A stretch of 53,806 bases of DNA, taken from the NCBI GenBank assembly GCA_017635095.1, contig JAGBMA010000052.1, forward strand, positions 1-53,806. The letters run 5' to 3'. The position numbers and the translations under genes were made by a program. The notes under the pieces were generated by a model. It saw only the letters and a list, made by a program, of their open reading frames with translations, made no database searches and had not been told where the DNA came from. Shown piece after piece: positions 5,295 to 48,584 of the stretch (within the stretch, counting starts at the first letter, position 1; each line of letters opens with the position of its first letter). The DNA is from Ruminiclostridium sp. GTDB taxonomy: Bacteria; Bacillota; Clostridia; Oscillospirales; Ruminococcaceae.

Positions 5295-7091
5295 ATGAAA
5301 AACAATAAAAGACGCGGAATATTCCGGCAGGTCATAACACCTCTGACGATATTTCAGATAATGCTGATATTTTTTATGCTCATCTCAATGTATTTTCTCA
5401 CGCTGTATAGTATCTGGAATGAAAAGAAAGAGGCTTCTCAGCAGATTTCCGATTATACGGCAGAGATGCTCGGCGATTATCTGTGTATAGGGCGTATAAC
5501 AGATTATTTGCACGAAAATTATGAGAAGATCGCATTTGTTTACGATGACGGAGCTGCCGATATAAAAGAAAGAGAACTCAGCCAATATATCCCCGGATAT
5601 ATCTCCGCGAAGGAAGTGACTCCGGAGCAGTTTGACACAATGTCGGACGAGGTGCGTCAATTGTATGCTCAGGTTTGCTATATAAGAATATCGCTCGAAA
5701 TGGATAAAATAAAACAAAACCGCAAGCCGCTTTATCTTGCCGCAGTTCTTTACTGCGATGAAATGCTTTTTTATATAGCGGAGGGGGTCCTTGAAAATGA
5801 AGGTCGCGTCAGTCAGGGCGGTAAATTGTGGGAACTCGGAATGAGCGAGCCGTATTCACTTTATATAGGCGAATCCGCAAAGCTTGACAATCTGGTCGGT
5901 GTAGGCCGCGAAGATGCGTTTGTACTGCCGGTCTTTGCGGATACCGATGAGGAAGCCGTTTATACATTTACTCCTGTTTACGATGAGGACGGCAGGCTTG
6001 TAATGATCGTAACTGCGGCAAATAAGTGGACTGAGTTTCTGATCGAGGGGATCGAATTCACACTTATACTGTTTGTGACAGTAACATTCCTTGTAATTAT
6101 TCAGCTTTGGAAAACTGCACGTCTGCTCTTAGATATGATAGTTCGCCCGATCCGGAGGGAACAGGATATACTTAATGAATTTATTGAAGAAAAACAGTCG
6201 GAAAAGGTAGTGTCCGAGCTTGCGGAGATCAGAACGGACAACGAGATACAGACCTTCGCGGAAAATTTCTCATATATGGCTTCGGAGCTTGACAAATATA
6301 CAAAAGAGCTTATATCCGCAACAGCGGAAAAGGAACGAATGGCAACGGAGCTCGACCTTGCCACAAAAATACAGAGCGGTATGCTGCCGAATATATTTCC
6401 TGCATTCCCCGACCGTCCGGAGTTTGATATTTACGCTTCAATGGATCCCGCGAAGGAGGTTGGCGGCGACTTCTACGACTTTTTCATGACAGATGACGAT
6501 CATCTTGCAATGGTGATAGCCGATGTTTCCGGCAAGGGCGTTCCCGCCGCGCTGTTTATGATGTCCGCCAAGATACTGATAAACGACCATACTTTGATGG
6601 GAGGTACTCCGGCTGAGATACTTGAAAAGGTCAATAAGCAGGTATGTGCCAATAATAAGGCTCGTATGTTCGTCACGGTATGGCTCGGAATATTGGAAAT
6701 CAGTACCGGTAAGCTGATGACCTCCAGCGCGGGTCATGAATATCCGATTCTCTGTCTGAACGGTAAATATGAAATACTGAAGGATAAGCACGGTCCTCCG
6801 GTCGGGACATTCAAAAAAGCAAAATATACAAATCATGAGCTGACATTGAAAAAGGGCGACAGCATATTTGTATATACCGACGGAGTTGCAGAGGCTACCG
6901 ATGCGGACAATCAGCTTTTCGGAACGGAGCGCTTGCTCGATACATTGAACGCGGTATCGGAAGGCACGACACAGCAGGATATTCTGAAAGCGGTTCGTGC
7001 CGCTGTTGATGATTTCGTAAAGGAAACGCCGCAGTTCGACGATCTTACTATGCTGGGACTTAAATACTTCGGAACGGAGGAAAACAAATGA
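5295..7091 (+). CDS. membrane-bound SpoIIE-type PP2C phosphatase with extracellular sensor
   Basis: 598 residues: TM1 (about 12-35), an extracellular segment of about 210 residues resembling a Cache-type sensor, TM2 (about 250-275), a HAMP-like linker (VRPIRREQDILNEF), a coiled coil, then a PP2C/SpoIIE domain. All metal-site motifs are present: GGDFYDF, ADVSGKGVPAALFM, YTDGVAEA and FDDLTML. Such phosphatases dephosphorylate STAS antagonists in partner switching (RsbU/SpoIIE logic). The PP2C half is very similar to the second copy at 41054-42520. The stop overlaps a tiny remnant frame at the place where the second copy is followed by its HATPase kinase. Confidence 0.9.
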   Translation: MKNNKRRGIFRQVITPLTIFQIMLIFFMLISMYFLTLYSIWNEKKEASQQISDYTAEMLGDYLCIGRITDYLHENYEKIAFVYDDGAADIKERELSQYIPGYISAKEVTPEQFDTMSDEVRQLYAQVCYIRISLEMDKIKQNRKPLYLAAVLYCDEMLFYIAEGVLENEGRVSQGGKLWELGMSEPYSLYIGESAKLDNLVGVGREDAFVLPVFADTDEEAVYTFTPVYDEDGRLVMIVTAANKWTEFLIEGIEFTLILFVTVTFLVIIQLWKTARLLLDMIVRPIRREQDILNEFIEEKQSEKVVSELAEIRTDNEIQTFAENFSYMASELDKYTKELISATAEKERMATELDLATKIQSGMLPNIFPAFPDRPEFDIYASMDPAKEVGGDFYDFFMTDDDHLAMVIADVSGKGVPAALFMMSAKILINDHTLMGGTPAEILEKVNKQVCANNKARMFVTVWLGILEISTGKLMTSSAGHEYPILCLNGKYEILKDKHGPPVGTFKKAKYTNHELTLKKGDSIFVYTDGVAEATDADNQLFGTERLLDTLNAVSEGTTQQDILKAVRAAVDDFVKETPQFDDLTMLGLKYFGTEENK

Positions 7092-7126
7092 AGTTGATTA
7101 TAAAAAAGAATATCGGACATTTTTAA
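7088..7126 (+). pseudogene. possible remnant of an RsbW-type HATPase gene
   Basis: An ATGA overlap with the phosphatase stop starts a 12-codon frame MKLIIKKNIGHF. In the second phosphatase locus the same overlap starts the complete HATPase MKELIIDALTENL. The shared start geometry and first residues suggest that a coupled kinase gene was lost here. The segment is too short for certainty. Confidence 0.3.
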
Positions 7127-7244
7127 AGAAAGGTACAGACAAGGTGTTGAACCGCTTGTATTAAATATTAGAATGTAACAGCCTGTATATCCAATTTATT
7201 ATCCGAAATCAAGACCCGCTTAATTCGGAAAGAAAGGAAACAAT

Positions 7245-13392: not shown

Positions 13393-14553
13393 ATGGATAC
13401 AAAGGCTTTTATGAAAAAATACACCATGGTCATAGCGCTGGTCGTGGTATTTGTGCTGTTTGCGATACTTACGGGCGGCAGACTGCTCGCTGCGCAGAAT
13501 CTGTCAAACCTGCTTTTACAGAACTCTTATGTGCTGATAATGGCTTGCGGTATGCTGCTGTGCATACTGACCGGCGGTAACGTCGATCTGTCTGTCGGCT
13601 CGACGGTGTGCCTTGTGGGCGCGGTGGCGGCACAGCTTCTTGCGGGAGGGCTCCCGGCGCTTGTCGTTATCCCGCTCTGTCTTATCATCTCAATGCTCAT
13701 CGGTATATGGCAGGGCTTCTGGATAGGATATATCCACATACCGCCGTTCATCTGTACGCTTGCGGGAATGTTCCTGTTCCGTGGTCTTGGGCGTGCTATA
13801 CTCGGCTCAAAGACCGTAACTATCAACGATGACACATTCCTGAATATCTTTGCTTCGTATATAAATTTCCCCGGACTTGACGACGGAGATGTGAAATGGT
13901 CGGCATTCATTCTCGGCTGTATCGTGGCGCTGGTCGTTATCATGAACAAGTTTATCGCCCGTTTCAACAAGCGGAAGAAGGGATATAAGCAGGATCCGAT
14001 AGTCTCCGATGCCGCAAAGACTGCTGTGATAGTTCTTATGATACTCGCCTATACATGGCAGCTCGCACATTTCCGCGGAATTTCCGTTATGGCGCTGTGG
14101 GTCGTTGCGGTAGTTGTAGTTTATGCCTTCCTCACCTCTAAGGTGGCAATGGGACGATATTTCTACGCTGTCGGCGGCAATGAGAAGGCTGCGAAGCTTT
14201 CGGGTATTGATACAAAGAAGGTCTATTTCAGAGCCTACACCTCAATGTCGCTGCTGGCGGGTCTTTCGGGACTTATCGTTGCGGCGCGCATAGGCTCGGT
14301 CAACGGCGATACGGGAAGCTCCTTTGAAATGGACGCTATCGGAGCCTGCTTCATAGGAGGAGCCTCCGCATACGGCGGGAGCGGAAATATTGCCGGTGTT
14401 GTGGTCGGCGCGATCTTGCTCGGCGTTATCAATCAGGGTATGTCGATAATAGGTCTTGACAATAACTTCCAGTACATAGTCAAGGGTGCTGTGCTGCTTG
14501 TTGCGGTTATATTCGATGTGGTATCTAACCGTAAAACAGGCAAGGCAGGTTAA
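13393..14553 (+). CDS. mmsB: sugar ABC transporter permease (MmsB/GguB)
   Basis: 386 residues, about ten TM helices, BPD_transp_2 family. Contains GNVDLSVGS near residue 58 and the EAA-like region (GGNEKAAKLSGIDTKK), followed by GACFIGGASAYGGSG, as in RbsC/XylH permeases. GAGAGGAA precedes the ATG. Third gene of the importer operon. The following STAS-kinase gene starts 49 nt downstream without a clear terminator, so it could be transcribed with the transporter. Confidence 0.92.
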   Translation: MDTKAFMKKYTMVIALVVVFVLFAILTGGRLLAAQNLSNLLLQNSYVLIMACGMLLCILTGGNVDLSVGSTVCLVGAVAAQLLAGGLPALVVIPLCLIISMLIGIWQGFWIGYIHIPPFICTLAGMFLFRGLGRAILGSKTVTINDDTFLNIFASYINFPGLDDGDVKWSAFILGCIVALVVIMNKFIARFNKRKKGYKQDPIVSDAAKTAVIVLMILAYTWQLAHFRGISVMALWVVAVVVVYAFLTSKVAMGRYFYAVGGNEKAAKLSGIDTKKVYFRAYTSMSLLAGLSGLIVAARIGSVNGDTGSSFEMDAIGACFIGGASAYGGSGNIAGVVVGAILLGVINQGMSIIGLDNNFQYIVKGAVLLVAVIFDVVSNRKTGKAG

Positions 14554-14602
14554 GACGATACATTAAATACAAATTCAACAATATAATTACGGAGTTATTA
14601 GT

Positions 14603-15790
14603 ATGAAAACCGCTACCGAAAACAACATTCTTACGATCTTTCTCGCAGGCAGGATAGACACCAACAACGCTGCACAGACCGAAAGCAAGATTTTCGCCGC
14701 AGTCGATAATGCAAATGGCGCGGACATAATTATCGACGCGGAAAAGCTCGAATACATATCAAGCGCGGGGCTTCGTGTGCTTATGAAGCTGCGCAAGAGC
14801 ATTGACAAGCCGCTGCCTGTCATCAATGTATCGCGTGATGTTTACGACATATTCGAGACTACGGGATTTACGGAGCTGCTTGATGTAAAAAGAGCATTGC
14901 GAGAGATATCTGTTGACGGATGTGAATTCATAGGTGCCGGAGCATACGGAAAGGTCTATCGCATTGACCCCGAAACGATTGCTAAAATATACCGTCTGGA
15001 GGTATCGCTTGCGTTCGTTGAGCGCGAAAGAAATGTATCGCAGAAAGCATTTCTGCTCGGAGTACCTACTGCGATAAGCTATGATGTCGTGAAGTGCGAT
15101 GACAGCTATGGCGTGGTGTATGAGCTTGTTGACGCGCAGACAGTGGGGAATGCGATAAAGAATGACCGTGAGCGTGTTTCGGAGCTTGCAGGTCGCTGTG
15201 CGGGACTGCTCAAAAAGCTGCACAGCATCGAGGTACCGGCTGATTCGGAGCTACCGAGCCGCAAGCAAAATCTGTTTGATTGGTTGAATAGTATCTCCGA
15301 GTTCCTCACATCGGAAGAGAACGAAAAAATAAGAACATTTATTGCAGATATCCCAGATCGCAGGGGTTTCCTGCACGGAGATTTTCACGCAAAGAACATA
15401 ATGCTCCAGAATAATGAATTTGTGCTGATAGACATAGGCGATGCGGCATACGGACACCCGATCTTCGATATAGCGACACAGATACTTGCGTATGTTCTCT
15501 TTCCTTCAAATACGACTCGCACAAGAGAGCAGATCGAGGGATATCTGGGCTTTAATGCGGACGATGTCGGCAAATACTGGGCTGCGTTCTGCTGCACTTA
15601 TTTCGGTATAACTCCAGAAAAGATAGGCGAGATAACACAGAAATATCTTGCCTACGGTATGCTGTTGATGGCTTTCCACAGTGTTTTGGTGACCGGGTCG
15701 GATAAAGATGCGCTCAAGCCTCGTGTTGACGCAATTGTCAGGGGTAAGCTGATCCCTGCAATAGATACAGCTCAGCCATTGGATTTTTGA
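14603..15790 (+). CDS. STAS - APH-type kinase fusion 1
   Basis: 395 residues. Residues 1 to about 100 form a STAS domain with the anti-anti-sigma phosphosite motif YISSAGLRVL. Residues about 108-390 form an APH/protein-kinase-like domain of the TIGR02172 type: Gly loop GAGAYGKVYRI, Lys in TIAKIYR, catalytic HGDFHAKNIM and metal Asp in LIDIGDA. I infer that phosphorylation of the STAS Ser by an RsbW-type kinase controls, or is controlled by, the attached kinase; the substrate is unknown. The kinase half is more divergent from the other two fusions than those are from each other. Followed 12 nt later by a tyrosine-phosphatase-like gene. Not an obvious antibiotic-resistance gene. Confidence 0.88.
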   Translation: MKTATENNILTIFLAGRIDTNNAAQTESKIFAAVDNANGADIIIDAEKLEYISSAGLRVLMKLRKSIDKPLPVINVSRDVYDIFETTGFTELLDVKRALREISVDGCEFIGAGAYGKVYRIDPETIAKIYRLEVSLAFVERERNVSQKAFLLGVPTAISYDVVKCDDSYGVVYELVDAQTVGNAIKNDRERVSELAGRCAGLLKKLHSIEVPADSELPSRKQNLFDWLNSISEFLTSEENEKIRTFIADIPDRRGFLHGDFHAKNIMLQNNEFVLIDIGDAAYGHPIFDIATQILAYVLFPSNTTRTREQIEGYLGFNADDVGKYWAAFCCTYFGITPEKIGEITQKYLAYGMLLMAFHSVLVTGSDKDALKPRVDAIVRGKLIPAIDTAQPLDF

Positions 15791-15802
15791 GAGGTAAGAA
15801 AT

Positions 15803-16615: not shown

Positions 16616-16647
16616 ATCATAAGACCAATCTACAGGAGGAAACCGCT

Positions 16648-17832: not shown

Positions 17833-17852
17833 TATGAGACAGAAAACATATT

Positions 17853-35949: not shown

Positions 35950-35957
35950 TATGAAGG

Positions 35958-35996: not shown

Positions 35997-36010
35997 GTGT
36001 TGTCAGAGCA

Positions 36011-36322: not shown

Positions 36323-36378
36323 AATGATTGATATACTCCTTTTGTTTGATTTTGATATGGCAAATCACATATTTTGCC

Positions 36379-37122: not shown

Positions 37123-37172
37123 TTTAATAGTTCACACTTATAAGCGTGTTTCTCCTTGTTATGTTATTTACA

Positions 37173-38447
37173 TCACTTCGACAGTTCTATCTTCGGAAGA
37201 AGTCTCTTTTTCTGCTCCGAAGCCTCATACGGTATCTTCTCCGTGTCAAGGAGCCTGCATAAGAGGTCAAACGGGGTGCGATCCTTATTGATGAGCTGGA
37301 ACGAGATGCAGAATTTTTCTTTAAGGGCGATGACCTCCAGCATAAGGTCGCCGTCCGTTATTATGTAAAATTCCTCGATATATTTGTTCATCTCGCCCCA
37401 ATCGGTAGGCTTGGTGTAGCTTATGGTAAAGGTGTCGCGGGTGTCGCTGCGGAATGTGCTGTTTTGGGTGGCGTACTTTTTCTTTTCCTTGAGCGTAGGC
37501 TGTTCATCAATACCCTTGTGGATTGCTTCAATGTTTTTGTACCGTTCATAGCTCAGCTCCGGCTGGCTCTGACCGATTATCGCGCCCCTTGCACGCATAT
37601 TGAGCTTTTCGACAGATTCATCCCGAGTATTCCAGTCATATTTTATATGCAGCAAACGAACGAAGTCGCGGTATGACTTTTCGGCACCGATATCGTTCCT
37701 GTAATCGTCCGCGATACGCACGGAGAGATGTGTGTCCTTCTTCTCCTTGAAATATGACACATTCGATTTAAAAAATAACGCGGACAGAAGGGTGTTCGGG
37801 CTTTCGTCGATATTCCGGGCGTATTCCATAAGCTTATCCGCCGGTATAATGAGCTGATAATAGTAATTATCCTTTGCAAACGGGTTGATAAGGTATTTGA
37901 TGAACCGCATCAGCGCAACATTTGAATTTCCGCCGTTATATCTTGTAACAGGCTTGTCGTCGGGCAGACTGTCCGCTTCGGGCAGCGCCAGTTCCTCGGG
38001 ATCAATGGGAGTGCCGGGCAGCTTTATATCCTCCGGCGGCTCGATATGACCGTATTTTTTTGTCAGGTAGGCGTATAGTGTGGTCTTGACCCAGAACATT
38101 GAACCGGCTCCGCCGCATACGCTGTGAGAAAAGCTGAACCATATCACATCTTCACGATAGGTTATCGCAAACAGATGTCTGTTCACCTTATCCGAGCCGA
38201 GAACGAGCCTTTCGTCTTTTTCGGGATTTACAGTGATCGGTGTGTCGTTGTGTACAACAGTGTAATTCTGCTCCTTGTCAAGCTCGACCTTTACGCTGAA
38301 ATACGGAAGCCTCTTTACAGCCTCCTGAGCCGCTTCATAAAGCAGCTTTGCATCGATATTTTCGCTGAGTCTTACCTTTATTCTTACGGTATAAGGCACT
38401 TTTTCCATATACTCGTAAAGCAGGTATGCATCGGGATTTTTTGCCAT
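37173..38447 (-). CDS. condensation-domain-fold acyltransferase-like protein 2 (altered motif)
   Basis: 424 residues, paralogue of the protein at 20219-21487 with the same size and architecture (KVELDKEQNYTVVHND against VKLVRRGEEYVMIHND). The catalytic HxxxDG motif reads SHSVCGGAG: His is kept but Asp is replaced by Gly. Activity may be altered or lost. AAAGGAG precedes the ATG. Sits between the exported prephenate dehydratase and acetolactate decarboxylase genes. Confidence 0.72.
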   Translation of the reverse strand: MAKNPDAYLLYEYMEKVPYTVRIKVRLSENIDAKLLYEAAQEAVKRLPYFSVKVELDKEQNYTVVHNDTPITVNPEKDERLVLGSDKVNRHLFAITYREDVIWFSFSHSVCGGAGSMFWVKTTLYAYLTKKYGHIEPPEDIKLPGTPIDPEELALPEADSLPDDKPVTRYNGGNSNVALMRFIKYLINPFAKDNYYYQLIIPADKLMEYARNIDESPNTLLSALFFKSNVSYFKEKKDTHLSVRIADDYRNDIGAEKSYRDFVRLLHIKYDWNTRDESVEKLNMRARGAIIGQSQPELSYERYKNIEAIHKGIDEQPTLKEKKKYATQNSTFRSDTRDTFTISYTKPTDWGEMNKYIEEFYIITDGDLMLEVIALKEKFCISFQLINKDRTPFDLLCRLLDTEKIPYEASEQKKRLLPKIELSK

Positions 38448-38509
38448 GGCAGTTTGCTCCTTTCGTTCTTAAAGGTTGATAGTTGTTAAGAAGATCGAAA
38501 GATCATCTT

Positions 38510-39436
38510 TTATTTTGAGACAGCGTTGAAGCTGCCGCAGAATCGAATGATGCTGTTCGCGCAAACCTTTTCTATCTGCTTATCGGTGATGCCGCCGGGG
38601 ACTTCGGCCTCTATGATATAGTTGTATTTCCCGAGCTTGCTGCCTTCGGGGCGATCGTGTATCGTGACAAGCTCAAGACCGGAATTGTGGATCTCAACGA
38701 TTATGTCGTCTATCATATTTGCTTCGCAGGTTGCGGCAAATACAGCGTTAGTGCCGCCGGTCATGCGCTCCTTTGACAGTACATAGAAGCGCGTTTTGTT
38801 CGCGTCTGTTATCTGTACATTCTCCGCGAGTACTTCGAGACCGTACAGACTTGCGGCTCCCGGAGCTGCGACCGCGGCTATCGTTTTATCGCCCTGCTCC
38901 GCAACATAAGCGGCTGCGGCGGCTGTACTTCCCATTTCCTCGGTGACGGCGCCGGGCATATTCTCTTTTCTCCATTGTTCGGACTGTTTTATTCCCTGCG
39001 CGTGGGAGCATACGGTCTTTATGTCCGCAATTGTCGCCCCGGGAACTCCCATAAGCGTCTGGCTTATCGGGATTATCACCTCGCCGACTACATACACATC
39101 ATCACGGCTGAGAAGAGCGTCAACATAGTTTGTGACAGCACCGCCAAGAGTATTTTCCTGCGGTATCACGGCGTAATCGGAGACACCCGCCGCCGCGTCC
39201 TCTATAGCCTCATCAACCGTCGCTTTCGGAATGAAGCTGTCGTTGGAATTAAAGAAATACTTTGCCGCTTCTTCGGTGTATGTGCCTTCGGGTCCGAGAT
39301 AGCTTACAGCGGCATTCTCCTTTATAGCTTCCGCAGCGGGCGGGAGAGAGACGGAAGGTGCATTGTTGCTGCCGCAGCCCGAAAAAACAAGAGCCGATGC
39401 TATAAATGTGAGTGCGACCGATGTTATTTTTTTCAT
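38510..39436 (-). CDS. prephenate dehydratase-like lipoprotein with ACT domain
   Basis: 308 residues. Signal peptide with lipobox VFSGCGS (Cys near 21), so the protein is outside the membrane. The mature part is a P-protein type dehydratase: YLGPEGTYTEEAA, IPQENTLGG, and KTRFYVL holding the catalytic Thr-Arg-Phe. The C-terminal ACT-type domain has SGLELVTI and HDRP at the place of the Phe-binding ESRP. Ordinary PheA is cytoplasmic; periplasmic PheC is a different (binding-protein) fold. It might be an active exported enzyme or a recycled extracellular aromatic-acid sensor. Confidence 0.85.
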   Translation of the reverse strand: MKKITSVALTFIASALVFSGCGSNNAPSVSLPPAAEAIKENAAVSYLGPEGTYTEEAAKYFFNSNDSFIPKATVDEAIEDAAAGVSDYAVIPQENTLGGAVTNYVDALLSRDDVYVVGEVIIPISQTLMGVPGATIADIKTVCSHAQGIKQSEQWRKENMPGAVTEEMGSTAAAAAYVAEQGDKTIAAVAAPGAASLYGLEVLAENVQITDANKTRFYVLSKERMTGGTNAVFAATCEANMIDDIIVEIHNSGLELVTIHDRPEGSKLGKYNYIIEAEVPGGITDKQIEKVCANSIIRFCGSFNAVSK

Positions 39437-39496
39437 ATAAGATTTCCTTTTCGATGAAAAGATTTTTAAAAGATCTGAAATTTGTGCGGTATTGCC

Positions 39497-40798
39497 TTAA
39501 TTCTCCTCAAAGAATATAGAATCAAAACCGGTAGTCTCCAGAATTTCCATTATCTCGGGCTTTACATTTTCAAGGAACATACCGTTTTCGGAGTTCTTTT
39601 TCATGATGAGCAGCACGCGAAGTCCCGCCGATGAAATATATTTAAGCTCCGCGCAGTCAACATGCACGGCTTTGATGTTCTTCTCTTTGGCTGTATTTTC
39701 ATAGAATGACAATATCTTCGGTGCCGTAAGCGAATCTATTCTTCCTGTAAACGAAAGGCAGAGCTTTTCGCCTTCTATCTGCGCTTTGACATCAAAATCC
39801 TTTTCGCCGATGCTTCCCGTATCTATATCTTCGCGAACAGCAGGCGCGCCCATAGATGTTATCTTCCAGTAGGCGTTCAGCTTCATGACTTCCTTTACTG
39901 CCGCTATCTGCTCGGGTTTAAGCTTTTCAAATACTTTAAGCTCGGGCATATTGTCCGCGACGATCTTTCTCTCTGCTTTCAGACCGTGCTTCGCAAGAAA
40001 TTCCATACCCTTCTTAATATCCTCCGAAATATCTGCCTTCGGGAATACCACAAGAGTGCTGCCCTTAACGCCTACGTCCGATTTATCCTCCGCTCTTTTC
40101 TGCATTGACGCAAGAGCCTCCAGCGCCTTGTCTCCGAGAATAGCCTTCACAATGAGGGTGTATGCCACAAGCCATTCCGGGTCAATGGTGAGCCAGCAGC
40201 CGCCGTGCTCGTCAAGTATCTTCTTCACATTATCGCAGAGAGCGCCGATCTCCGAGTCATTGAAATACACCATAAGACCCTCTGTAGTAATAACGACCTT
40301 TCCGTCAACATCGGATAACGCAGCTTTCAGCGATTCATAGTTTGTGGCATCGACACCCGCAAATTTCACCATTTTCTTCTGCTCATCATTAAGTAGCGAA
40401 TTTATGACGGGTTCGACCTCGGTAATGGTAGCCGGAAGGTCAAGCCCTACGAATTTATGACCCGCCCTTGTGTATCTTAAAGCCTTGGGAAGATAACCGC
40501 ACGGCAGATCGACCTCCGTGAAATCGCCTTCGTCCATAGCGAGCTTTTCGATAGTATGATACCTCATGTCCATAAGCAGGCTCTCCATAAGGAGCTTTAC
40601 CGCGTCCGAGGTGGTCGTGGTGCTGTTCTGTGTGCTTTCTTCGGTAAGACCGAGCTTTTTCGACATGAGTATCGAATCCTCATCTCCCGATGCCGCCAAC
40701 TGATAAAGCGTCATTTTGGCAGTGTTGAAGATCGGATTGGCACGCTCTAAAAGCTCTGCATCTACCTCGATGTCGTCTAAGTTGAATAAATTTTCCAT
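39497..40798 (-). CDS. PPM1/LCM-family methyltransferase - STAS fusion
   Basis: 433 residues from the ATG at 40798 with AAGGAGGAAC before it; an in-frame ATG farther upstream lies beyond this site. Residues about 30-290: SAM-dependent O-methyltransferase of the Tcmp/PPM1 type (VDLPCGYLPKALRYTRAG, then FVGLDLP). Residues about 335-433: a STAS domain with KYISSAGLRVLLIMKK. STAS phosphorylation may switch methylation of an unknown acceptor on or off (inference). First gene of the minus-strand operon, divergent from the second PP2C phosphatase. Confidence 0.87.
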   Translation of the reverse strand: MENLFNLDDIEVDAELLERANPIFNTAKMTLYQLAASGDEDSILMSKKLGLTEESTQNSTTTTSDAVKLLMESLLMDMRYHTIEKLAMDEGDFTEVDLPCGYLPKALRYTRAGHKFVGLDLPATITEVEPVINSLLNDEQKKMVKFAGVDATNYESLKAALSDVDGKVVITTEGLMVYFNDSEIGALCDNVKKILDEHGGCWLTIDPEWLVAYTLIVKAILGDKALEALASMQKRAEDKSDVGVKGSTLVVFPKADISEDIKKGMEFLAKHGLKAERKIVADNMPELKVFEKLKPEQIAAVKEVMKLNAYWKITSMGAPAVREDIDTGSIGEKDFDVKAQIEGEKLCLSFTGRIDSLTAPKILSFYENTAKEKNIKAVHVDCAELKYISSAGLRVLLIMKKNSENGMFLENVKPEIMEILETTGFDSIFFEEN

Positions 40799-40908
40799 GT
40801 GTTCCTCCTTGTTCTGTATCAGAAAGGCTGTCCTGCCCGATATGATATACATTTTCGTCTGAGCGAAGGCTGTTTGTTAAAAAACAGTGCCGGCTCACGA
40901 CATCTTTC

Positions 40909-40937
40909 ATTTTACCATATTTTTTGTATAATTTCAA
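40909..40937 (-). promoter_or_regulatory. promoter of the methyltransferase-STAS operon
   Basis: Minus strand TTGAAA, 17-nt spacer, TGG-TAAAAT (extended -10), about 110 nt before the start codon. Confidence 0.7.
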
Positions 40938-40950
40938 CTGTTTTAACAGT
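40937..40950. promoter_or_regulatory. inverted repeat abutting the -35, candidate operator
   Basis: ACTGTT-TT-AACAGT, perfect 6-bp arms, overlapping the outer edge of the minus-strand -35 and 39 nt before the plus-strand -35. It is positioned to control both divergent promoters. Confidence 0.45.
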
Positions 40951-40988
40951 ATTTTTTGTGATACCTGCTGTGCTTTTCTTTATTTTTC

Positions 40989-41017
40989 TTGAATTTGTCA
41001 TTATTTTGTGGTATAAT
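40989..41017 (+). promoter_or_regulatory. promoter of the second PP2C phosphatase operon
   Basis: TTGAAT, 17-nt spacer, TATAAT. Its position excludes an upstream in-frame ATG at 41021 as a likely start and supports ATG 41054. Confidence 0.75.
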
Positions 41018-41053
41018 TATATGGCAGTAAAACCAAAAAGGAGAAAATCAACT

Positions 41054-42520
41054 ATGATATTCAATGTTTCGGTACCCGATCTCATCAATACGTTCATTAT
41101 TTCAGCCGGAATAGGTATCTGCGTGATGATAATGCAGCATATCACATTTTCGGTGGGGCTGTCAACAGAGCTGAAGAAATTTGCCCGGTTTTTTTTCATT
41201 GTTCTGACGATGTACCTTTCTCTGCATTTAGCCCGCCAGCTTATGAACGGAATGGCGGGAGATGTTATCCGTGTTGCGCTGTATATTGTGACCACGCTTG
41301 AAGTTTTTATGGCCGGATTTATGGCATATATGTTTTCAAGAATGCTGCTGGTCTTTGCGAAAACGCATGAAAAGGAAAAGCATTTCTCTGTTCCGCTGAA
41401 CATATTGATATGTGTACATTCGGCGGTTCTTGTCGGAGACTGGTTTGGTCATTTCATCTACAGATTTGATGAAGATAATATTTATGAACGCTCCTCACTG
41501 TATATACTGTCGAATGTATGTCCCATATTAATGCTGATGATCTCCGCTTTTCTGCTCATTCGTTATCGTGATAACATAAAGAAACAAATAAGAACAGCCT
41601 TTTGGGTGTATATAATATCTCCGCTGATTGCAATAGTTATCCAGAGCTTCTCCTACGGTGTACAGTTTATTATGCTTGCCTCCGTTATCGGTGCAGTATA
41701 TATGTTCAGCGCTATTATCCGTGAACAGACCGAGAAGTTTGAAAATCAGAGGCTTGAAAAATCAAGGATAGAATCCGAATTAAATCTTGCCACCAATATA
41801 CAGGCGGGTATGCTCCCGAATATGTTCCCGGCATTCCCGGAGCGACCGGAGTTTGATATCTACGCTTCAATGGATCCTGCCAAGGAAGTCGGCGGCGACT
41901 TCTACGATTTCTTTATGATAGACGATGACCATTTGGCTATGGTTATAGGCGATGTTTCCGGCAAGGGAGTACCCGCGGCGCTATTTATGATGGCTTCGAA
42001 GATAACGATAAATGACCACGCGCTGATGGGCGGCACACCTGCGGAGATACTCCAGAGAGTAAATAAGCAGATATGCTCCGCCAACGACGCTGAGATGTTC
42101 GTCACGGTATGGCTTGGAATACTTGAAATAAGTACAGGAAAGCTCACCGCCGCCAGCGCGGGACACGAATATCCGATGCTGAATATAAACGGCAAATACG
42201 AGCTGTTCAAGGATAAGCACGGTCTGGCTGTGGGTGCTATGGATATAGCTAAGTACAAGGATTACGAGATAACGCTGAAAAAGGGAGACAGCATATTCGT
42301 GTATACCGACGGCGTTGCGGAAGCTACAGATGCACAGAACGAGCTTTTCGGAACAGACCGTACTCTTGACGCACTCAATAACTTGCCGGGCAATGATACA
42401 CAGGAAGAAATTCTGAAAGGTGTGCGTAAGGCAGTTGACGCATTCGTTAAGGAAGCACCGCAATTCGACGACCTTACTATGTTGGGACTTAAATATTTTG
42501 GGACGGGGGAAGAAAAATGA
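41054..42520 (+). CDS. multi-TM SpoIIE-type PP2C phosphatase
   Basis: 488 residues from ATG 41054 (AAAAGGAG upstream). The N-terminal half has about 6-7 TM helices with short loops (residues about 8-240), then a short coiled coil, then a PP2C/SpoIIE domain with GGDFYDF, GDVSGKGVPAALFM, YTDGVAEA and FDDLTML intact. Catalytic half nearly the same as the copy at 5295-7091, but with a different, fully membrane-embedded sensor. Predicted STAS-phosphate phosphatase. The stop overlaps the start of the RsbW-type kinase gene, giving a phosphatase/kinase pair. Confidence 0.9.
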   Translation: MIFNVSVPDLINTFIISAGIGICVMIMQHITFSVGLSTELKKFARFFFIVLTMYLSLHLARQLMNGMAGDVIRVALYIVTTLEVFMAGFMAYMFSRMLLVFAKTHEKEKHFSVPLNILICVHSAVLVGDWFGHFIYRFDEDNIYERSSLYILSNVCPILMLMISAFLLIRYRDNIKKQIRTAFWVYIISPLIAIVIQSFSYGVQFIMLASVIGAVYMFSAIIREQTEKFENQRLEKSRIESELNLATNIQAGMLPNMFPAFPERPEFDIYASMDPAKEVGGDFYDFFMIDDDHLAMVIGDVSGKGVPAALFMMASKITINDHALMGGTPAEILQRVNKQICSANDAEMFVTVWLGILEISTGKLTAASAGHEYPMLNINGKYELFKDKHGLAVGAMDIAKYKDYEITLKKGDSIFVYTDGVAEATDAQNELFGTDRTLDALNNLPGNDTQEEILKGVRKAVDAFVKEAPQFDDLTMLGLKYFGTGEEK

Positions 42521-42918
42521 AAGAACTTATAATTGACGCTCTTACGGAAAATCTTGATGCTGTGATCGCATTTGTGACAGAGCAGCTCGAAACCGTGGAC
42601 TGTCCGATGAAAGCTCAGATGCAGATAGAGGTGGCGGTAGAGGAGCTGTTCGTGAATATCGCGCATTATGCGTATGCACCGAATACAGGCTCGGCGACGA
42701 TACGCACGGAAATAACCGCAGATACGGCGGAGATAACCTTCATAGACAGCGGTGTACCGTATGATCCGCTCGCAAAGCCCGACCCCGATGTAACTCTTTC
42801 CGCAAAGGAAAGGCAGATCGGCGGTCTTGGGATATATATGGTCAAGAAAAGTATGGACGATATGCGGTATGAATACAGGGAAGGGCAAAACATTCTCACC
42901 ATTGTGAAAAAGCTATGA
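42517..42918 (+). CDS. RsbW/SpoIIAB-type HATPase serine kinase
   Basis: 133 residues, single HATPase_c_2 domain with good nucleotide motifs: N-box VAVEELFVNIAHYAY, G1 box FIDSGVPYDP, and G2 box QIGGLGIYMVKK. It is the only HATPase in the window with Asn, Asp and Gly residues all kept, so it is the best candidate for phosphorylating the STAS proteins. Coupled by ATGA overlap to the phosphatase; 13 nt before a cNMP-binding protein. Confidence 0.92.
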   Translation: MKELIIDALTENLDAVIAFVTEQLETVDCPMKAQMQIEVAVEELFVNIAHYAYAPNTGSATIRTEITADTAEITFIDSGVPYDPLAKPDPDVTLSAKERQIGGLGIYMVKKSMDDMRYEYREGQNILTIVKKL

Positions 42919-42931
42919 CAGGGGGATAATA

Positions 42932-43417
42932 ATGGACAGAACGAAGATAAAAGTGTTTGCCGAGGACGAGGTGGTCATTTCGGAGGGTCAGAGGAACACC
43001 GAGATGTACAAGATCGTTTCCGGGCAGGCAGCCATTTATTTTGACTACGGCAAGGAGAACGAATACCTTGTTGGTGTACTTACAGACGGGCGCTGCTTCG
43101 GCGAGATAGGACTACTGACAGGCAAGCCGAGCCTATTCTCCGTCGTTGCGGTGTCGTCCCTTATGTTGCTCGGTATCGATGCCGATGATTTTGAGGGATT
43201 TATCGCCGAGGAACCAAAAAACGCTGCGGATATAATGAGAAACCTTGCCGGAACAGTCGTTACAATGGGCGCCAATGTGAACTTACTCAAGGATGAGATG
43301 CTGCAGGCATTCAGCGATAAGGCGGACGACAAGCGTATGGAGCAGATAAACCGCAGTATTCTCAGATATAAAGTATCGGGAATGCAGGGGTCTCCGTATT
43401 TTTCAAAGCTGACATAA
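42932..43417 (+). CDS. cyclic-nucleotide-binding-domain protein without HTH
   Basis: 161 residues. Crp/cNMP-type beta-roll (VVISEGQRNTEMYKIVSGQA; GRCFGEIGLLTGKPSLFSVVA matches the phosphate-binding cassette region, but the Arg position reads as PSLFSV, so nucleotide binding is uncertain). No DNA-binding domain follows. Adjacent to the PP2C and HATPase, so probably a regulatory or protein-docking partner of the switch. AGGGGGATAATA precedes the ATG. Confidence 0.82.
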   Translation: MDRTKIKVFAEDEVVISEGQRNTEMYKIVSGQAAIYFDYGKENEYLVGVLTDGRCFGEIGLLTGKPSLFSVVAVSSLMLLGIDADDFEGFIAEEPKNAADIMRNLAGTVVTMGANVNLLKDEMLQAFSDKADDKRMEQINRSILRYKVSGMQGSPYFSKLT

Positions 43418-43462
43418 TAAATCAGGACAACAGATATATATTATTTACTCAAGGAGGACAAA

Positions 43463-45511
43463 ATGAACAAAAGAAAACTGACAGCATTATTCGCAGCCTG
43501 TGCAATGCTTTGCGGCTGCGGGAACGGGCAGACTGCCGGAACAACAACGGCTGCACCGTCGGAGACAACAACCGCGGCGTTTTCGGAAGGAACGGGAACG
43601 ACCGTTGAATATATCCCTTTTACGGAATTGTCCTACCGCGAGCAGGCGGAGCGGATAGTATCGGGAATGACCCTCGAACAGAAAATAGCTCAGATGATAA
43701 CAATATCCCTGCGCTGGTGGAGCGATACTCCGGATGACCCCGATTCGTTTGCAGCGGTAACAGAGCTGAACGATCGGCAGAAGGAGTTTCTCGCGAAATA
43801 CGACTTCGGCGGTCTTATTCTTTTCAAGCAGAACTGCGCCGATACAGAACAGATAGTGCGGCTTACAGCGTCGGTGCAGGACGCGGCGCGTGCGAGTGAG
43901 CAGGGAATACCTATGCTTATTTCCGTCGATCAGGAGGGTGGCAACATCACCCGCCTTACTACGGGCACGATGACCTGCGAAAATATGGCTCTGGGCGCGG
44001 CGGGAGATGCACAGTCGACCCGTGACAACGCCGTCATTATCGGCAGCGAGCTTGCGGCTTTGGGCATAAACACCGACTACGCGCCGGATTCCGATGTGAA
44101 CAACAATCCCGCAAATCCCGTAATAAATGTGCGTTCATTCTCAAGCGATCCGAAGCTTGTGGCAAAGCTCGCGCTTGCCTATGTGCAGGGTCTCGAGTCC
44201 GAGGGCGTGATCTCGACGGCCAAGCACTATCCCGGTCACGGAGATACGGGCACGGACAGCCACACGGGGCTCCCGATGATAGACAAGTCCTATGACGAGC
44301 TGAAACAGACGGAGCTTGTGCCTTTCGCGGCGGTCGCGGATGAAGCCGACATGATAATGACCGCGCACATCCAGTTCCCGCAGATCGAGACCGAAACATA
44401 TAAATCTATCGACAGCGGCGAGGAGATAAGCCTTCCCGCGACGCTCTCGAAAAAGATGATAAAGGACATACTCCGCGGCGACATGGGTTATGACGGAGTC
44501 GTGACCACCGACGACATGCTCATGGACGCGATAAACGTGAATTTCGACCCGATAGACTCGGCAGTGCTCGCGATAAACGCCGATGTGGATATTATCCTCG
44601 AGCCCATACAGGTCATGAGCGCGAAGGATATAGCACAGGATGAGTATATCGGAAAGCTCGTAGCGGCAGTTAATGACGGGCGTATCGCGGAAAGTGAGAT
44701 AGATGATTCGGTCGTTCGCATAATTACGCTGAAGCTCGAAAAGGGCATTATCGGCATGGAAGCAGTCAATGCCGATACGGCAGCCATAAGTGCAAAAACG
44801 ATAGTCGGCTCAAAGGAGCATCACAATAAGGAACTTGAAGTTGCTCTGCGTGCGGTAACGCTTGTGAAGAACGATGATAACACACTTCCGCTTGTAATGC
44901 AGGAAAACGAAAAGGTCGCGTACTTCTACCCTTACGCGGGTGAGGAAAACACGATGACCTTTGCTCTTGACAGACTGAAAGCCGACGGAGTTATCCCGGA
45001 CAGCGTAACTGCCGAGTGCCACGCGTTTACCGAGAACAGCGAATCAAGCGACTACGAAGGGCTTGCGAACGATGTTGCAGGCTACGAGGAACTGATAAAG
45101 GGCTGCAAGGCGATAATTATTGCTACAGAGACCTACCGTACAGGCAATATGGACAGAACAGACGAAAAGCGCGCTTGGCAGGCTGTATTCAGTGACGAAA
45201 TGACCGCGCTTGCACATAAGATCGGTATAAAGGTGATACATCTCAGTATGCATATGCCATATGATGCGGTGCGCTACACTGACGCGGACGCGGTGCTTTG
45301 CGCTTACTGCGGGAACGAGATGCCCGAAGTTCCTACGGAGTATAACGGCAATACACAGACCTACGGTGTGAACTATCCGGCGGCGCTCATAACCGTGTTC
45401 GGCGGCAGCACCCCAACGGGAAAGCTGCCAATTGATCTCCCTGCTTACACCGAGGGCGTCGGTTACTCGGACGAGATAGTTTATCCTATCGGGTATGGGC
45501 TGACGTACTGA
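43463..45511 (+). CDS. glycoside hydrolase family 3 lipoprotein (NagZ-type beta-N-acetylhexosaminidase)
   Basis: 682 residues. Signal peptide with lipobox MLCGCGN and a Thr-rich linker; the catalytic domain (about 70-410) has the NagZ His-Asp dyad loop KHYPGHGDTGTDSHTGLP and nucleophile Asp in VTTDDML. A second GH3_C-type domain extends to the end (GLTY). Acts on cell-surface GlcNAc or muropeptide sugars, either turnover of its own wall or host glycans. AAGGAGGA precedes the ATG; it lies inside the partner-switch operon. Confidence 0.9.
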   Translation: MNKRKLTALFAACAMLCGCGNGQTAGTTTAAPSETTTAAFSEGTGTTVEYIPFTELSYREQAERIVSGMTLEQKIAQMITISLRWWSDTPDDPDSFAAVTELNDRQKEFLAKYDFGGLILFKQNCADTEQIVRLTASVQDAARASEQGIPMLISVDQEGGNITRLTTGTMTCENMALGAAGDAQSTRDNAVIIGSELAALGINTDYAPDSDVNNNPANPVINVRSFSSDPKLVAKLALAYVQGLESEGVISTAKHYPGHGDTGTDSHTGLPMIDKSYDELKQTELVPFAAVADEADMIMTAHIQFPQIETETYKSIDSGEEISLPATLSKKMIKDILRGDMGYDGVVTTDDMLMDAINVNFDPIDSAVLAINADVDIILEPIQVMSAKDIAQDEYIGKLVAAVNDGRIAESEIDDSVVRIITLKLEKGIIGMEAVNADTAAISAKTIVGSKEHHNKELEVALRAVTLVKNDDNTLPLVMQENEKVAYFYPYAGEENTMTFALDRLKADGVIPDSVTAECHAFTENSESSDYEGLANDVAGYEELIKGCKAIIIATETYRTGNMDRTDEKRAWQAVFSDEMTALAHKIGIKVIHLSMHMPYDAVRYTDADAVLCAYCGNEMPEVPTEYNGNTQTYGVNYPAALITVFGGSTPTGKLPIDLPAYTEGVGYSDEIVYPIGYGLTY

Positions 45512-45605
45512 TATCCGGAACATCAATATAGTGTTAAAAGTCCAATGAATTTGCAAGCGGATACGAATACTTGATGGTGAGAGCAGAACAGAAGGGTGAA
45601 GACAC

Positions 45606-45902
45606 ATGAAACTGAAAAAATCAAATGACGGGTCAGAACTTACGGTCACGCTTGTGGGCGAGGTCGATGCGGCAAATGTTACGGTAATAGAGGAAAAGCT
45701 GCTCAAAGAGGTAGCTGGCGTCACCGACCTTACCTTTGACCTGAAAGAACTTGAATACATATCTTCTGCGGGGCTGCGTGTGCTCCTGCAAATGCAGAAA
45801 ATGATGAAAACGCAGGGTAATATGGTTATAATCAATACGAACGATGAAGTAATGGATATTTTCAAGGTCACGGGATTTGTAAGACTGCTGAATATTGTAT
45901 GA
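45606..45902 (+). CDS. stand-alone STAS protein adjacent to HATPase-symporter
   Basis: 98 residues with EYISSAGLRVLLQM; Ser pair intact. Separated by 18 nt from the HATPase-symporter fusion and in the same operon as a PP2C and an RsbW-type kinase. The natural inference is that it is the ligand of the symporter's HATPase-like domain. Confidence 0.92.
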   Translation: MKLKKSNDGSELTVTLVGEVDAANVTVIEEKLLKEVAGVTDLTFDLKELEYISSAGLRVLLQMQKMMKTQGNMVIINTNDEVMDIFKVTGFVRLLNIV

Positions 45903-45920
45903 CGTTAAAAGGGTTGTGCT

Positions 45921-47531
45921 ATGAGCTTAAAAACTATACGCGAAGACAGACTCACAAGAAGCGAAGTGGACGTAATATCCGAGCAGATCGAAATGCTGCT
46001 GGAAAAGAGCGGTCAGAACAAAACAGACCGTTTACGCACTAAGCTGATGATGGAGGATATTATTCTGAATATCTGCGAAAGGTTCGGTGAGGATACAACA
46101 TATACTCTTTACGCCGGTACCGTATTCGGACGTCAATTCATAAGGCTTTGTTATACCGGCGAGTCTTTTGACCCTAACATTGTTTCGGACGACCCTTCCG
46201 AAAACTGGAGCAGACGCATAATGTCGGATATGGGACTTTCGCCGGTATGGCAATACCGAAACGGCGTAAATACTCTTGAACTGAAACTGAAGCGCAAGAG
46301 CATCGGCAGTCTCGGAGCTATACTTATATCCATAGCTCTTGCGGTCATTCTCGGAGCGGTAGGCGCGGTACTGCTGTCCGACAGCGCAAAGGAAACTGTG
46401 TCGGGACTTGTGTTTGAGCCGCTTCAGAAAATGTTTCTTGACCTTTTGAGCGTATTTTCCGGCTTTCTGATACTGCTGAGTGTATCCTGCGGTATATTCA
46501 ATATGGGAAATGTATCGTCGTTCAGCAAAATGGGCAGGGTGATGTTCATGCGCTTTATTGGTTTTACGCTGCTGATCGCCGCATTCGTTTCCATAGGCTG
46601 TTACTTCCTTTTTCCTCCCGTATCTGTGTCGGGTGATACTGCCGGGGCGGGGGAAACGGGACTTTCGGATATATTCGGTATGATATATGACATAGTGCCG
46701 GGAGATCCGGTCACACCATTTATGAACGGCAATGCGATGCAGATAGTTCTGATCGGTATTATTGTCGGCGTGACTGTTCTTGTTCTCGGCGAAAAGGCAA
46801 ACGGTATCAAAAGTGTCGCCGAAGAGCTCAATAATATGGTCAGCAGCATTCTTTCCGGTGTATGCAAAATGATACCGGGCTATGTATTCCTTGTCCTGAT
46901 AAATATGATATGGTCCGGTACATATAAGCAGCTGCTGAATATATGGAAGCCTATGGTCACTATGGTCGCTATTGATATTGCATTCCTTGCAGCGGTCATT
47001 GTTTACTTTTGTATAAGGTACAGAGTAAGTGTCGGAACAATTGTCAGAAAGCTGCTGCCGACTTTTATGAAGCTGATAACGACTGCTTCGACAATAGGGG
47101 CATTTTCCGAAACTATCGAAGACGGCACCGCTAAATTTGGTATAGATAAGAAATATATGAAGGTCGCACACCCGATAAGAGCGATAGTTTTTATGCCCGG
47201 GCTTGCAACGGAATTTGCCGTGCTTATATACAGCATGGCTCAATTATTCAGTGTTGAGATCGGTCTGATACAGATCATAATGGGTATTCTGATAATTACC
47301 ATACTTACTGTTGCGGTCCCGCCTATAGCCGGTTCTGTGGCGATGGTTTTCGGGATATTGTTTACGCAGATGGGTATTCCTGTCGAAGCGATAGCTCTTG
47401 CGGTTACCTGCGATGTATTTTACGACTTCCTTGATTGTGCGATAAACAACTCTGTTGGAATATTGGAATGTGCTATGCAGGCTGATAAATTTGGTATGCT
47501 TGATCATGATGTGCTGAAAAAGCAAGGATAG
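45921..47531 (+). CDS. HATPase-like domain fused to dicarboxylate/amino-acid:cation symporter
   Basis: 536 residues. Residues 1 to about 130 form an RsbW-type HATPase-like module (LRTKLMMEDIILNICERFG keeps the N-box Asn; CYTGESFDP has Tyr for the G1 Asp; the G2 glycines are absent). Residues about 140-530 are an SDF/GltP-type Na+ symporter with about eight TM helices, including VPPIAGSVAMVFGILF and a tip-loop-like FDFLDC/NNSVGILE region. Placing a degenerate anti-sigma-type domain on the cytoplasmic N-terminus suggests direct gating of organic acid or amino-acid uptake by the neighbouring STAS protein. Confidence 0.85.
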   Translation: MSLKTIREDRLTRSEVDVISEQIEMLLEKSGQNKTDRLRTKLMMEDIILNICERFGEDTTYTLYAGTVFGRQFIRLCYTGESFDPNIVSDDPSENWSRRIMSDMGLSPVWQYRNGVNTLELKLKRKSIGSLGAILISIALAVILGAVGAVLLSDSAKETVSGLVFEPLQKMFLDLLSVFSGFLILLSVSCGIFNMGNVSSFSKMGRVMFMRFIGFTLLIAAFVSIGCYFLFPPVSVSGDTAGAGETGLSDIFGMIYDIVPGDPVTPFMNGNAMQIVLIGIIVGVTVLVLGEKANGIKSVAEELNNMVSSILSGVCKMIPGYVFLVLINMIWSGTYKQLLNIWKPMVTMVAIDIAFLAAVIVYFCIRYRVSVGTIVRKLLPTFMKLITTASTIGAFSETIEDGTAKFGIDKKYMKVAHPIRAIVFMPGLATEFAVLIYSMAQLFSVEIGLIQIIMGILIITILTVAVPPIAGSVAMVFGILFTQMGIPVEAIALAVTCDVFYDFLDCAINNSVGILECAMQADKFGMLDHDVLKKQG

Positions 47532-47657
47532 TGTATCTTCCGAAGGCAATACTTCCGATGTAAGAAAACGGAGCTCCATCGTTCGCAGGGACGGAAACAT
47601 TGATGTTCCGCGGTGGCAGGTCCTGCCGCTGTTATCGTATAAGTTAAATGTAAAGAG

Positions 47658-48584
47658 ATGATGAAGATGTCAAAAAAATATAACGGAGAGACGGTCATAC
47701 TTCCGAAAAGCATTTCCGGCAAGTCAATAGAAGCGTCAGAAAAAGGCTTTCTGTTTGCATTTCACGATGGGAAAGTTGAAAAGTATCGGCTTGACGGAGT
47801 AAAGCGCCTCGGACGTATGACGGACGGCAACATACCGGATATCGTCGTGCAGAATATGTTCTTGTCCCGTTCGCATGGATATTTCACCGCGGAGGACGGC
47901 TATGTCACATATACCGCGGAGGAGACTACAAACGGTATTGCGCTGAACGGGAAAACAATACCTCCCGGGACGACTGTAAGGCTTTTCGATGGCGATGAGC
48001 TTACCATACCGACCGTGGAAAATGCGGACAGCAAGAATGATATTATTCTGAAATGCGCGTTCTCGCCCTCTAAAATATCGCTTTGGGATTCCATGATAAA
48101 AGCGCAGCTCGATGAACTTACGGGACTGCCCGGACGACGGCTTTTCACGGACAGATTTGAAGCGCTCCCGAGAACTGATGATACCGATGACTGGCTTTTC
48201 ATTCTTGATGTTGACCGTTTCAAGCAGATAAATGATAAATACGGTCATTCCGTAGGAGACGATACATTAAAGACACTTGCGGACGAGCTGAAAAAGCCGG
48301 AGCATCATATACGACTGTCCGCTCGCTGGGGCGGCGATGAGTTTGTCGGAGTAGTATCAGGCGATAAGGAAAGCGTACTTTTCATAATCAACAAGCTCGT
48401 TGACGCACTGTCCTCACGAATGATACGGAACAGGTTCTCAATATTTGTAAGTATGGGGATATGCAGGATACCGCGCATATCGGGCGGCAACCTTCTTACC
48501 GAGACTGTGGAGAAAGCGGATAAAGCTCTATATCAAGCGAAAAGAAACGAGAACGAGCAGGTTTGCTTTTATGAGCAGCGTTGA
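47658..48584 (+). CDS. FHA - GGDEF diguanylate cyclase
   Basis: 308 residues. FHA domain (about 50-115): RLGR, LSRSHGYF, NGIALNGK, DGDEL. GGDEF domain (about 145-300): LDVDRFKQINDKYGHSVGDD and RWGGDEFVG, an intact active site; the RxxD inhibitory site is missing (HHIR at that place). It should make c-di-GMP under control of a phospho-Thr protein bound by the FHA. Kinases of the APH type in this window are not known to make such marks. Start could be 47658, 47661 or 47667. The 126-nt gap before it holds no clear promoter. Confidence 0.9.
   Translation: MMKMSKKYNGETVILPKSISGKSIEASEKGFLFAFHDGKVEKYRLDGVKRLGRMTDGNIPDIVVQNMFLSRSHGYFTAEDGYVTYTAEETTNGIALNGKTIPPGTTVRLFDGDELTIPTVENADSKNDIILKCAFSPSKISLWDSMIKAQLDELTGLPGRRLFTDRFEALPRTDDTDDWLFILDVDRFKQINDKYGHSVGDDTLKTLADELKKPEHHIRLSARWGGDEFVGVVSGDKESVLFIINKLVDALSSRMIRNRFSIFVSMGICRIPRISGGNLLTETVEKADKALYQAKRNENEQVCFYEQR

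Follow-up and report, generated by a model that had tools for sequence, protein, structure and literature searches.

Degenerate RsbW-Like Domains Fused to Transporters Suggest a Sigma-Free Partner Switch in Ruminiclostridium sp.

Described partner switches and the Ruminiclostridium locus

Partner switching is best known for freeing a sigma factor. A STAS protein with a conserved serine, an RsbW-like kinase, and a SpoIIE-type PP2C phosphatase occur in both the SpoIIAA/SpoIIAB/SpoIIE–sigmaF and the RsbV/RsbW/RsbU–sigmaB systems, and proteins of the same kinds are encoded in a 53,806-nucleotide stretch of DNA from Ruminiclostridium sp. (GenBank assembly GCA_017635095.1, 3.83 Mb in 236 contigs; positions 1–53806 of contig JAGBMA010000052.1, designated C205), hereafter called the window. 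Unlike in these systems, the contig contains no sigma factor gene, degenerate kinase-like domains are attached to transporters, and STAS domains are attached to enzymes. This report concerns these modules, with emphasis on three transporter proteins (a MATE exporter, an amino-acid ABC ATPase, and an SDF symporter), each bearing an RsbW-like domain that may act as a receiver in a partner switch controlling transport.

The initial annotation took a sigma factor to be the endpoint of the known partner switches; this premise is wrong, since sigma-free switches have been described. SiaABCD of Pseudomonas aeruginosa is reported to end at a diguanylate cyclase (PMC7647112, PMC8457831); like the window, it comprises a PP2C phosphatase, a HATPase kinase, and a STAS-like protein acting on an enzyme instead of a sigma factor (PMC7647112, PMC8457831, PMC9239204), and PP2C phosphatase 1 of the window matched the SiaA model, with a score far under the cut-off (E 1.4e-19). 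In that system, the STAS-like protein SiaC is described as binding the cyclase stalk; in the window, the presumed target is the RsbW-like portion of a transporter. CapK/CapS, a sigma-free pair of a HATPase kinase and a STAS protein, differs from the window in its output, CapS being a DNA-binding repressor (PMC13373217). The STAS protein MlaB is described as binding and directly controlling an ABC ATPase, with a phosphomimetic change weakening the binding (PMC7367683); in contrast to the arrangement presumed for the window, MlaB contacts the ATPase directly and no RsbW-like domain is involved, and phosphorylation of MlaB is not shown in that work. SypA, BtrV, RbaV, and HmpV are listed as further sigma-free partner switches, with mostly unknown targets (PMC8256260), and the SLC26/SulP proteins described in the same source likewise carry a partner-switch-type domain on a secondary transporter, although there it is the STAS side that is fused and in the window the RsbW-like side.

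Sigma-free partner switching itself is therefore already known. The window differs in its presumed receiver, a transporter-borne RsbW-like domain that lacks an ATP site. No report of such a fusion was found among the titles and abstract openings listed in searches of open PMC papers.

The fused domains and their presumptive partners

The MATE exporter (26363–28147, plus strand; Pfam MatE E 7.8e-17) carries the RsbW-like domain at its C-terminus (about 27737–28144), as does the ABC ATPase (34268–35377, plus strand, open frame from 34205; ABC_tran 1.3e-35; domain at about 34982–35374), while in the SDF symporter (45921–47531, plus strand; Pfam SDF 5.2e-44) it is N-terminal (about 45921–46310). 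In these protein families generally, the MATE C-terminus, the SDF N-terminus, and the ABC ATPase are cytoplasmic. The ABC ATPase is closest to the GlnQ and TcyN amino-acid models (GlnQ-like 1.2e-90, under the cut-off) and is not an Mla lipid-system ATPase.

The initial annotation had placed HATPase-like modules on these three transporters. Pfam HATPase_c_2 (PF13581) did not confirm them, since the MATE tail reached only E=0.017 and 15.6 bits, well below the 27.4 bits required, and neither the ABC tail nor the SDF domain gave a match at E<=0.05. Profile-profile comparison with 18 intact kinases recovered them nonetheless over most of their length, with probabilities of 98.3% for the ABC (P=1.7e-14), 98.6% for the MATE (P=6e-16), and 97.3% for the SDF (P=1.8e-11) domains, the negative controls (SDF versus STAS and ABC versus STAS) giving 0.1–0.2%. 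In profile searches of the PDB, the MATE tails matched RsbW and SpoIIAB only at E 0.026–0.035, level with a designed protein (0.026). Profile-profile comparison confirms that the fused domains are homologous to intact RsbW-like kinases.

All 21 free kinases examined retain the Asn of the N-box, both the Asp and the Gly of the G1 box, and the GGLG motif. In the fused domains, the N-box Glu pair is kept (the first in 59/59, the second in 58/59, the exception being the window SDF domain with Asp); the second of these residues is the catalytic base of SpoIIAB. The G1 Asp was found in none of 8 SDF domains, one gene being counted twice because loci L104 and L161 overlap (L-numbers denote fetched loci), and in none of 16 readable ABC domains (3 more are gapped), which have also lost the glycine lid. 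All three fused domains of the window lack the ATP-binding Asp and the lid, and the SDF domain keeps the N-box Asn. Thus, of the four RsbW-type domains counted in the initial annotation, one is an intact kinase by Pfam and three, recognised by profiles, have no ATP-binding residues and look like receivers rather than kinases. Transporters carrying such domains are called fused MATE, ABC, and SDF below. Separately, a stand-alone family of about 200 amino acids occurs in the neighbourhood of STAS genes together with PP2C or kinase genes (L080:668-1303, L009:16896-17501, L012:6040-6642, L073:5936-6529); it has no Pfam match, shows an N-box-like EE pair by eye in the alignment, and is maybe another degenerate HATPase.

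The remaining core components were recognised by Pfam, in agreement with the initial counts of six STAS domains and two PP2C phosphatases. The intact kinase gene (42517–42918, plus strand; HATPase_c_2 7e-24), whose product keeps all the motifs listed above and whose family profile has RsbW (6m36, 7.7e-10) as the best PDB match, overlaps by 4 bp the gene of PP2C phosphatase 2 (40799–42520, plus strand; SpoIIE 7.2e-45), a protein with many hydrophobic stretches and an uncertain start, its frame overlapping a divergent gene. In PP2C phosphatase 1 (5295–7091, plus strand; SpoIIE 1.1e-47), hydropathy shows two hydrophobic stretches N-terminal to the catalytic domain.

Each of the six STAS domains scored above the STAS cut-off. 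Three are N-terminal to APH kinase domains, in genes at 14603–15790 (STAS 1.5e-11, APH 9.2e-19), 16648–17832 (open frame from 16609; STAS 1.8e-13, APH 7.1e-15), and 29299–30483, all on the plus strand, the last 17 bp upstream of a substrate-binding protein (SBP)-permease gene. Two are free, at 36011–36322 (minus strand; 2e-18) and at 45606–45902 (plus strand; 8.9e-17), the latter 18 bp upstream of the fused SDF gene. The sixth is C-terminal on a protein at 39497–40852 (minus strand; STAS 2e-11). The STAS fusions to APH and to this protein thus held up, but its methyltransferase label is weak, resting on an LCM match under the cut-off (E=0.041) and on a glycine-rich motif noticed by eye in a homologue (L009). 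The serine motif is carried by the five aligned window STAS domains and appears in the translation of the sixth; across loci, overlapping ones included, it was present in 99/99 STAS-APH, 11/11 methyltransferase-STAS, and 22/23 free STAS proteins, and the DNA patterns used to find the STAS-APH loci left out the serines. The APH motif HxDxxxxN was likewise found in 99/99 STAS-APH proteins, the best NCBIfam model of this domain being TIGR02172, under the cut-off.

Genome-wide, 28 STAS_2, 16 SpoIIE, 9 strong HATPase_c_2, and 50 Sigma70_r2 places were found. None of the 50 sigma places lies on C205, in line with the initial annotation, so no cognate sigma factor is encoded with the kinase. Contig C37 holds a row of STAS (175–411), HATPase (513–872), and sigma (919–1116) matches, as expected of spoIIAA-AB-sigF, and a sigma match within 5 kb accompanies only 3 of the 28 STAS places (C37, C60, C118). 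A search of 22 key loci with two sigma factors of the source genome revealed a single weak relative (E 2.4e-4), in L205, about 1.5 kb from its fused SDF gene.

Linkage, proposed mechanism, and alternatives

Two sets of loci were collected. The first, chosen by the fused domains, comprised 28 stretches of the family (4 from the source genome) and 20 of the phylum; the second, chosen by STAS-APH alone, was the best 80 of 291 stretches, corresponding to 78 loci, 75 of them with a STAS-APH gene (open reading frame calling gave none in L124, L148, and the Coriobacteriaceae locus L167). L084 and L159 are one contig, L147 and L165 overlap, and L134 and L136 are close relatives. Frame calling also passed over the fused SDF and STAS genes of L202, which lie behind longer frames, and other fused genes were possibly missed likewise. 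Promoter and terminator counts in the window (14000–33900 and 34000–50600) were near the level of shuffled sequence, and operon borders therefore rest on gene spacing.

The view that the modules belong together is supported by these loci, in which genes for the fused proteins stand together with those for STAS, PP2C, and intact HATPase proteins in short runs on one strand. The full set is contained in three genes in L202 (STAS, PP2C-HATPase, and fused SDF; gaps 7 and 26 bp), and related runs comprise STAS, fused SDF, and PP2C in L200 (gaps 42 and 9 bp), STAS and fused SDF in L198, and PP2C and fused SDF in L197. Fused MATE, PP2C, and HATPase genes form runs in L065, L079, L081, L085, L096, L109, and L143, as well as in L013 of the source genome. 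The fused ABC gene appears in L080 (STAS, unknown, PP2C, SBP-permease, fused ABC, DUF3574, kinase) and in L084 (PP2C, kinase, STAS, EamA, cation efflux, SBP-permease, fused ABC, cyclic-nucleotide-binding protein, flavodoxin, STAS-APH), which has eight families in common with the window. On a Treponema contig (L153), fused MATE (a short frame of 318 amino acids), STAS-APH, SBP-permease, and fused ABC genes follow one another with gaps of 61, 12, and -4 bp in the order of the window, which has one additional gene downstream of the fused MATE. Methyltransferase-STAS, fused MATE, and STAS-APH are joined in L145, and the one-strand run of PP2C, kinase, STAS, STAS, and methyltransferase-STAS in L012 of the source genome ties the methyltransferase-STAS fusion to the core.

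Within 3 kb of STAS-APH, in the 75 loci, we found fused MATE in 12, PP2C in 8, methyltransferase-STAS in 7, kinase in 5, fused SDF in 3, and fused ABC in 2 loci. Ten STAS-APH/fused MATE pairs in nine loci are adjacent, all on the same strand, with gaps of -32 to 187 bp. Among the MATE matches listed in nine genomes of the family, compiled by hand and with weak matches missing, a PP2C gene lies within 5 kb of 7/16 tailed but 0/73 plain MATE genes (p=1.7e-6), or of 5/12 versus 0/64 without the source genome (p 4.3e-5); here "tailed" means an open frame of at least 560 amino acids or a tail found by sequence, 2 of the 16 (G071 C128 and C18) qualifying by length alone. Near STAS-APH, 12 loci have a tailed MATE gene and 4 a plain or cut one, versus 16 tailed and 73 plain genes among the matches listed in the nine genomes (p 1.4e-5), a comparison between sets from different genomes in which related loci are not independent.

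Sequence relatives of the SDF domain, the ABC tail, and the MATE tail were detected in 4, 10, and 9, respectively, of 148 genomes of the family, source included. In 398 genomes of the phylum, profile matches were obtained in at least 18 for the ABC tail and at least 14 for the SDF domain; judged by open-frame size, fused ABC is present in at least about 8 and fused SDF in at least about 9 phylum genomes, source included. These phylum counts are lower bounds, since at most 10 first-look candidates were scored per genome. The closest matches to the STAS-APH genes of the window bear record titles such as Ruminococcus, Ruminiclostridium, and Clostridia metagenome-assembled genomes, many from ruminant guts, and the record titles among the best 80 of 291 stretches also include Lachnospiraceae, Treponema, Fibrobacter, Synergistaceae, and Anaeroplasma, a spread that hints at STAS-APH transfer among rumen bacteria. 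A cultured isolate, Lachnospiraceae bacterium P6B14, likewise has STAS-APH and fused MATE genes (L144, L156).

With moderate confidence, we propose that these modules form a sigma-free partner switch in which docking of an unphosphorylated STAS domain on a degenerate RsbW-like domain sets the activity of the transporter. The basis in the window is the overlap of the kinase gene (42517) with the PP2C gene (40799), the six STAS domains with their serine motif, and the occurrence of RsbW-like domains lacking ATP-binding residues on three unrelated transporter families. The RsbW-like kinase would phosphorylate the STAS serines, and the membrane-anchored PP2C phosphatases would strip the phosphate upon a cue. 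The unphosphorylated STAS domain, free or within the APH kinases and the methyltransferase-like protein, would then dock on the kinase-dead domain that a transporter carries, much like SpoIIAA on SpoIIAB, thereby changing transport, and phosphorylation would release it. If the degenerate domains are receivers, an exporter, an amino-acid importer, and a symporter would all read a single phosphorylation signal directly. We are less sure, and suggest only tentatively, that the kinase-dead RsbW-like domain is a general plug-in receiver on MATE, ABC, and SDF proteins in several Bacillota families and a rumen Treponema, through which STAS phosphorylation directly controls transport, with the STAS-kinase and STAS-methyltransferase proteins as movable partners.

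Several observations weigh against the proposed switch. The linkage anticipated in related genomes is seen in one-strand runs and in the proximity of tailed MATE to PP2C genes, but many fused genes stand without a partner: among the tail-chosen loci with L202 added, 8/13 fused SDF, 17/22 fused ABC, and 5/10 fused MATE genes lack a STAS, PP2C, or kinase neighbour within 5 kb, and fused ABC is frequently part of an ordinary-looking importer. A sequence search found none of the three fused domains in two genomes of the same genus. The MATE tails are mixed and not uniformly degenerate, with the Asp in 18/32 and the Asn in 12/32, the tail in L065 being nearly intact, and a sequence search of the ABC tails against PDB gave zero matches at E<=10.

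Rather unlikely, in our estimation, is the reverse direction of signalling, in which the transporters are inputs and transport alters the RsbW-like domain, so that it captures or frees STAS proteins or pairs with the intact kinase to tune it; a heterodimer of this kind is possible because RsbW-like kinases act as dimers. The outputs would then be the STAS-APH kinases, the methyltransferase-like protein, a cyclase, or gene expression. HATPase-GGDEF neighbours in the source genome (L015, L024) could serve as such outputs, and fused transporters are often without a PP2C of their own. However, the hydrophobic stretches of the PP2C phosphatases suggest that they are membrane sensors themselves, and the runs in L202 and L200 consist of STAS, PP2C, and fused SDF without another recognised output gene.

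It is improbable that STAS-APH docks on the transporter tail through its STAS domain solely to keep the APH kinase at the membrane, where it would phosphorylate a compound during transport, an arrangement that leaves no regulatory part for the kinase and the PP2C phosphatase. The adjacent same-strand STAS-APH/fused MATE pairs, the invariable APH catalytic motif, and the frequent neighbour Y_phosphatase3 would be in keeping with such a scaffold; the conserved STAS serine and the runs with PP2C and kinase genes point instead to regulation, and fused SDF and MATE also accompany free STAS genes in runs lacking APH (L200, L202, L085).

Marginally the least probable explanation is that the fused domains have no part in signalling, being either remnants or domains that serve stability, and that their neighbourhood reflects an abundance of STAS, PP2C, and HATPase genes in these genomes, the real outputs being sigma factors elsewhere, as the STAS, SpoIIE, and Sigma70_r2 numbers of the source genome, the three STAS places close to a sigma match, and the solitary position of most fused ABC and SDF genes examined might suggest, but the N-box Glu kept in at least 58 of 59 domains, the recurrence of the fusions in several families and on a Treponema contig, and the restriction of PP2C proximity to tailed MATE genes argue against it.

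Neighbouring genes and wider implications

A Y_phosphatase3 gene (15803–16615, plus strand; Pfam 2.3e-55) is flanked by two STAS-APH genes. This family is the commonest clustered neighbour of STAS-APH, lying within three genes of it in 21 of the 76 loci that have STAS-APH, window included, and sharing a one-strand run with it in 18/122 loci. Downstream, an HD_4 domain of the RelA/SpoT type is fused to APH (17853–19331, plus strand; HD_4 4.1e-22, APH 2e-15; spoT_relA 3.4e-26, under the cut-off); an HD4-STAS fusion located beside STAS-APH, kinase, and PP2C genes in L155 ties this protein to the group. A role of the locus in anti-phage defence was considered and dropped, since in a PADLOC search with nine proteins only STAS-APH matched, weakly and in kinase regions (E 1e-4 and weaker).

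The fused ABC gene is preceded by that of an amino-acid ABC permease (30501–34271, plus strand; BPD_transp_1) and followed after 2 bp by a Flavodoxin_2 gene (35380–35949, plus strand; Pfam 4.9e-24). This permease and another at 23171–26185 carry five and four SBP_bac_3 stretches, respectively, in a single chain, and similar multi-SBP permeases precede fused ABC in many relatives. In L212, a gene for a TCAD9 kinase-like protein that bears a STAS domain (3075–5441, minus strand) is divergent from an SBP-permease and fused ABC pair; a literature search for TCAD in open PMC papers turned up nothing relevant. The cyclic-nucleotide-binding domain protein encoded downstream of the intact kinase (42932–43417, plus strand; Pfam 2.6e-17) is 47.5% identical to its relative beside fused ABC in L084. 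An FHA-GGDEF gene lies at 47658, 126 bp downstream of the fused SDF gene, and elsewhere in the source genome GGDEF-like proteins adjoin intact HATPase kinases (L015:1359-3016, L024:181-1922), a possible SiaD-like output.

Near fused MATE, a gene resembling GH3-family acyl-acid-amido-synthetases stands between it and PP2C or beside it in L013, L079, L081, L096, L109, and L143 (Pfam GH3 5.2e-57 for L013, the others by hidden Markov model). Two related window proteins, encoded at 20219–21487 and 37173–38447 (the latter on the minus strand), are 26% identical, have no Pfam match at E<=0.01, and resemble condensation-domain acyltransferases by eye; relatives lie near STAS-APH in L097, L104, L112, and L121. 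At 38510–39436 (minus strand), a prephenate dehydratase domain (Pfam 8.8e-54) follows an apparent lipoprotein signal, an odd site for such an enzyme. The region 3351–5273, which contains a gene for a small peptide, in which a leader ending in GG precedes a Cys/Gly-rich end, followed by a radical SAM protein (Pfam Radical_SAM 2.2e-16) with SPASM-like cysteines by eye, is probably a cluster for a ribosomally synthesised and post-translationally modified peptide.

Here, members of three unrelated transporter families carry the kinase fold as a degenerate appendage, and L202 holds in three adjacent genes every part that a direct signal-to-transport switch would need. Such a mechanism could account for some of the 25 of 28 STAS places in the source genome without a sigma match within 5 kb. 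If the proposed switch is real, its small modules are open to testing, and it would provide rumen and gut bacteria with a rapid means, independent of transcription, of controlling amino-acid, dicarboxylate-type, and export fluxes; if the kinase-dead domain is moreover a general receiver, this would represent a new class of post-translational transporter regulation common to rumen bacteria.

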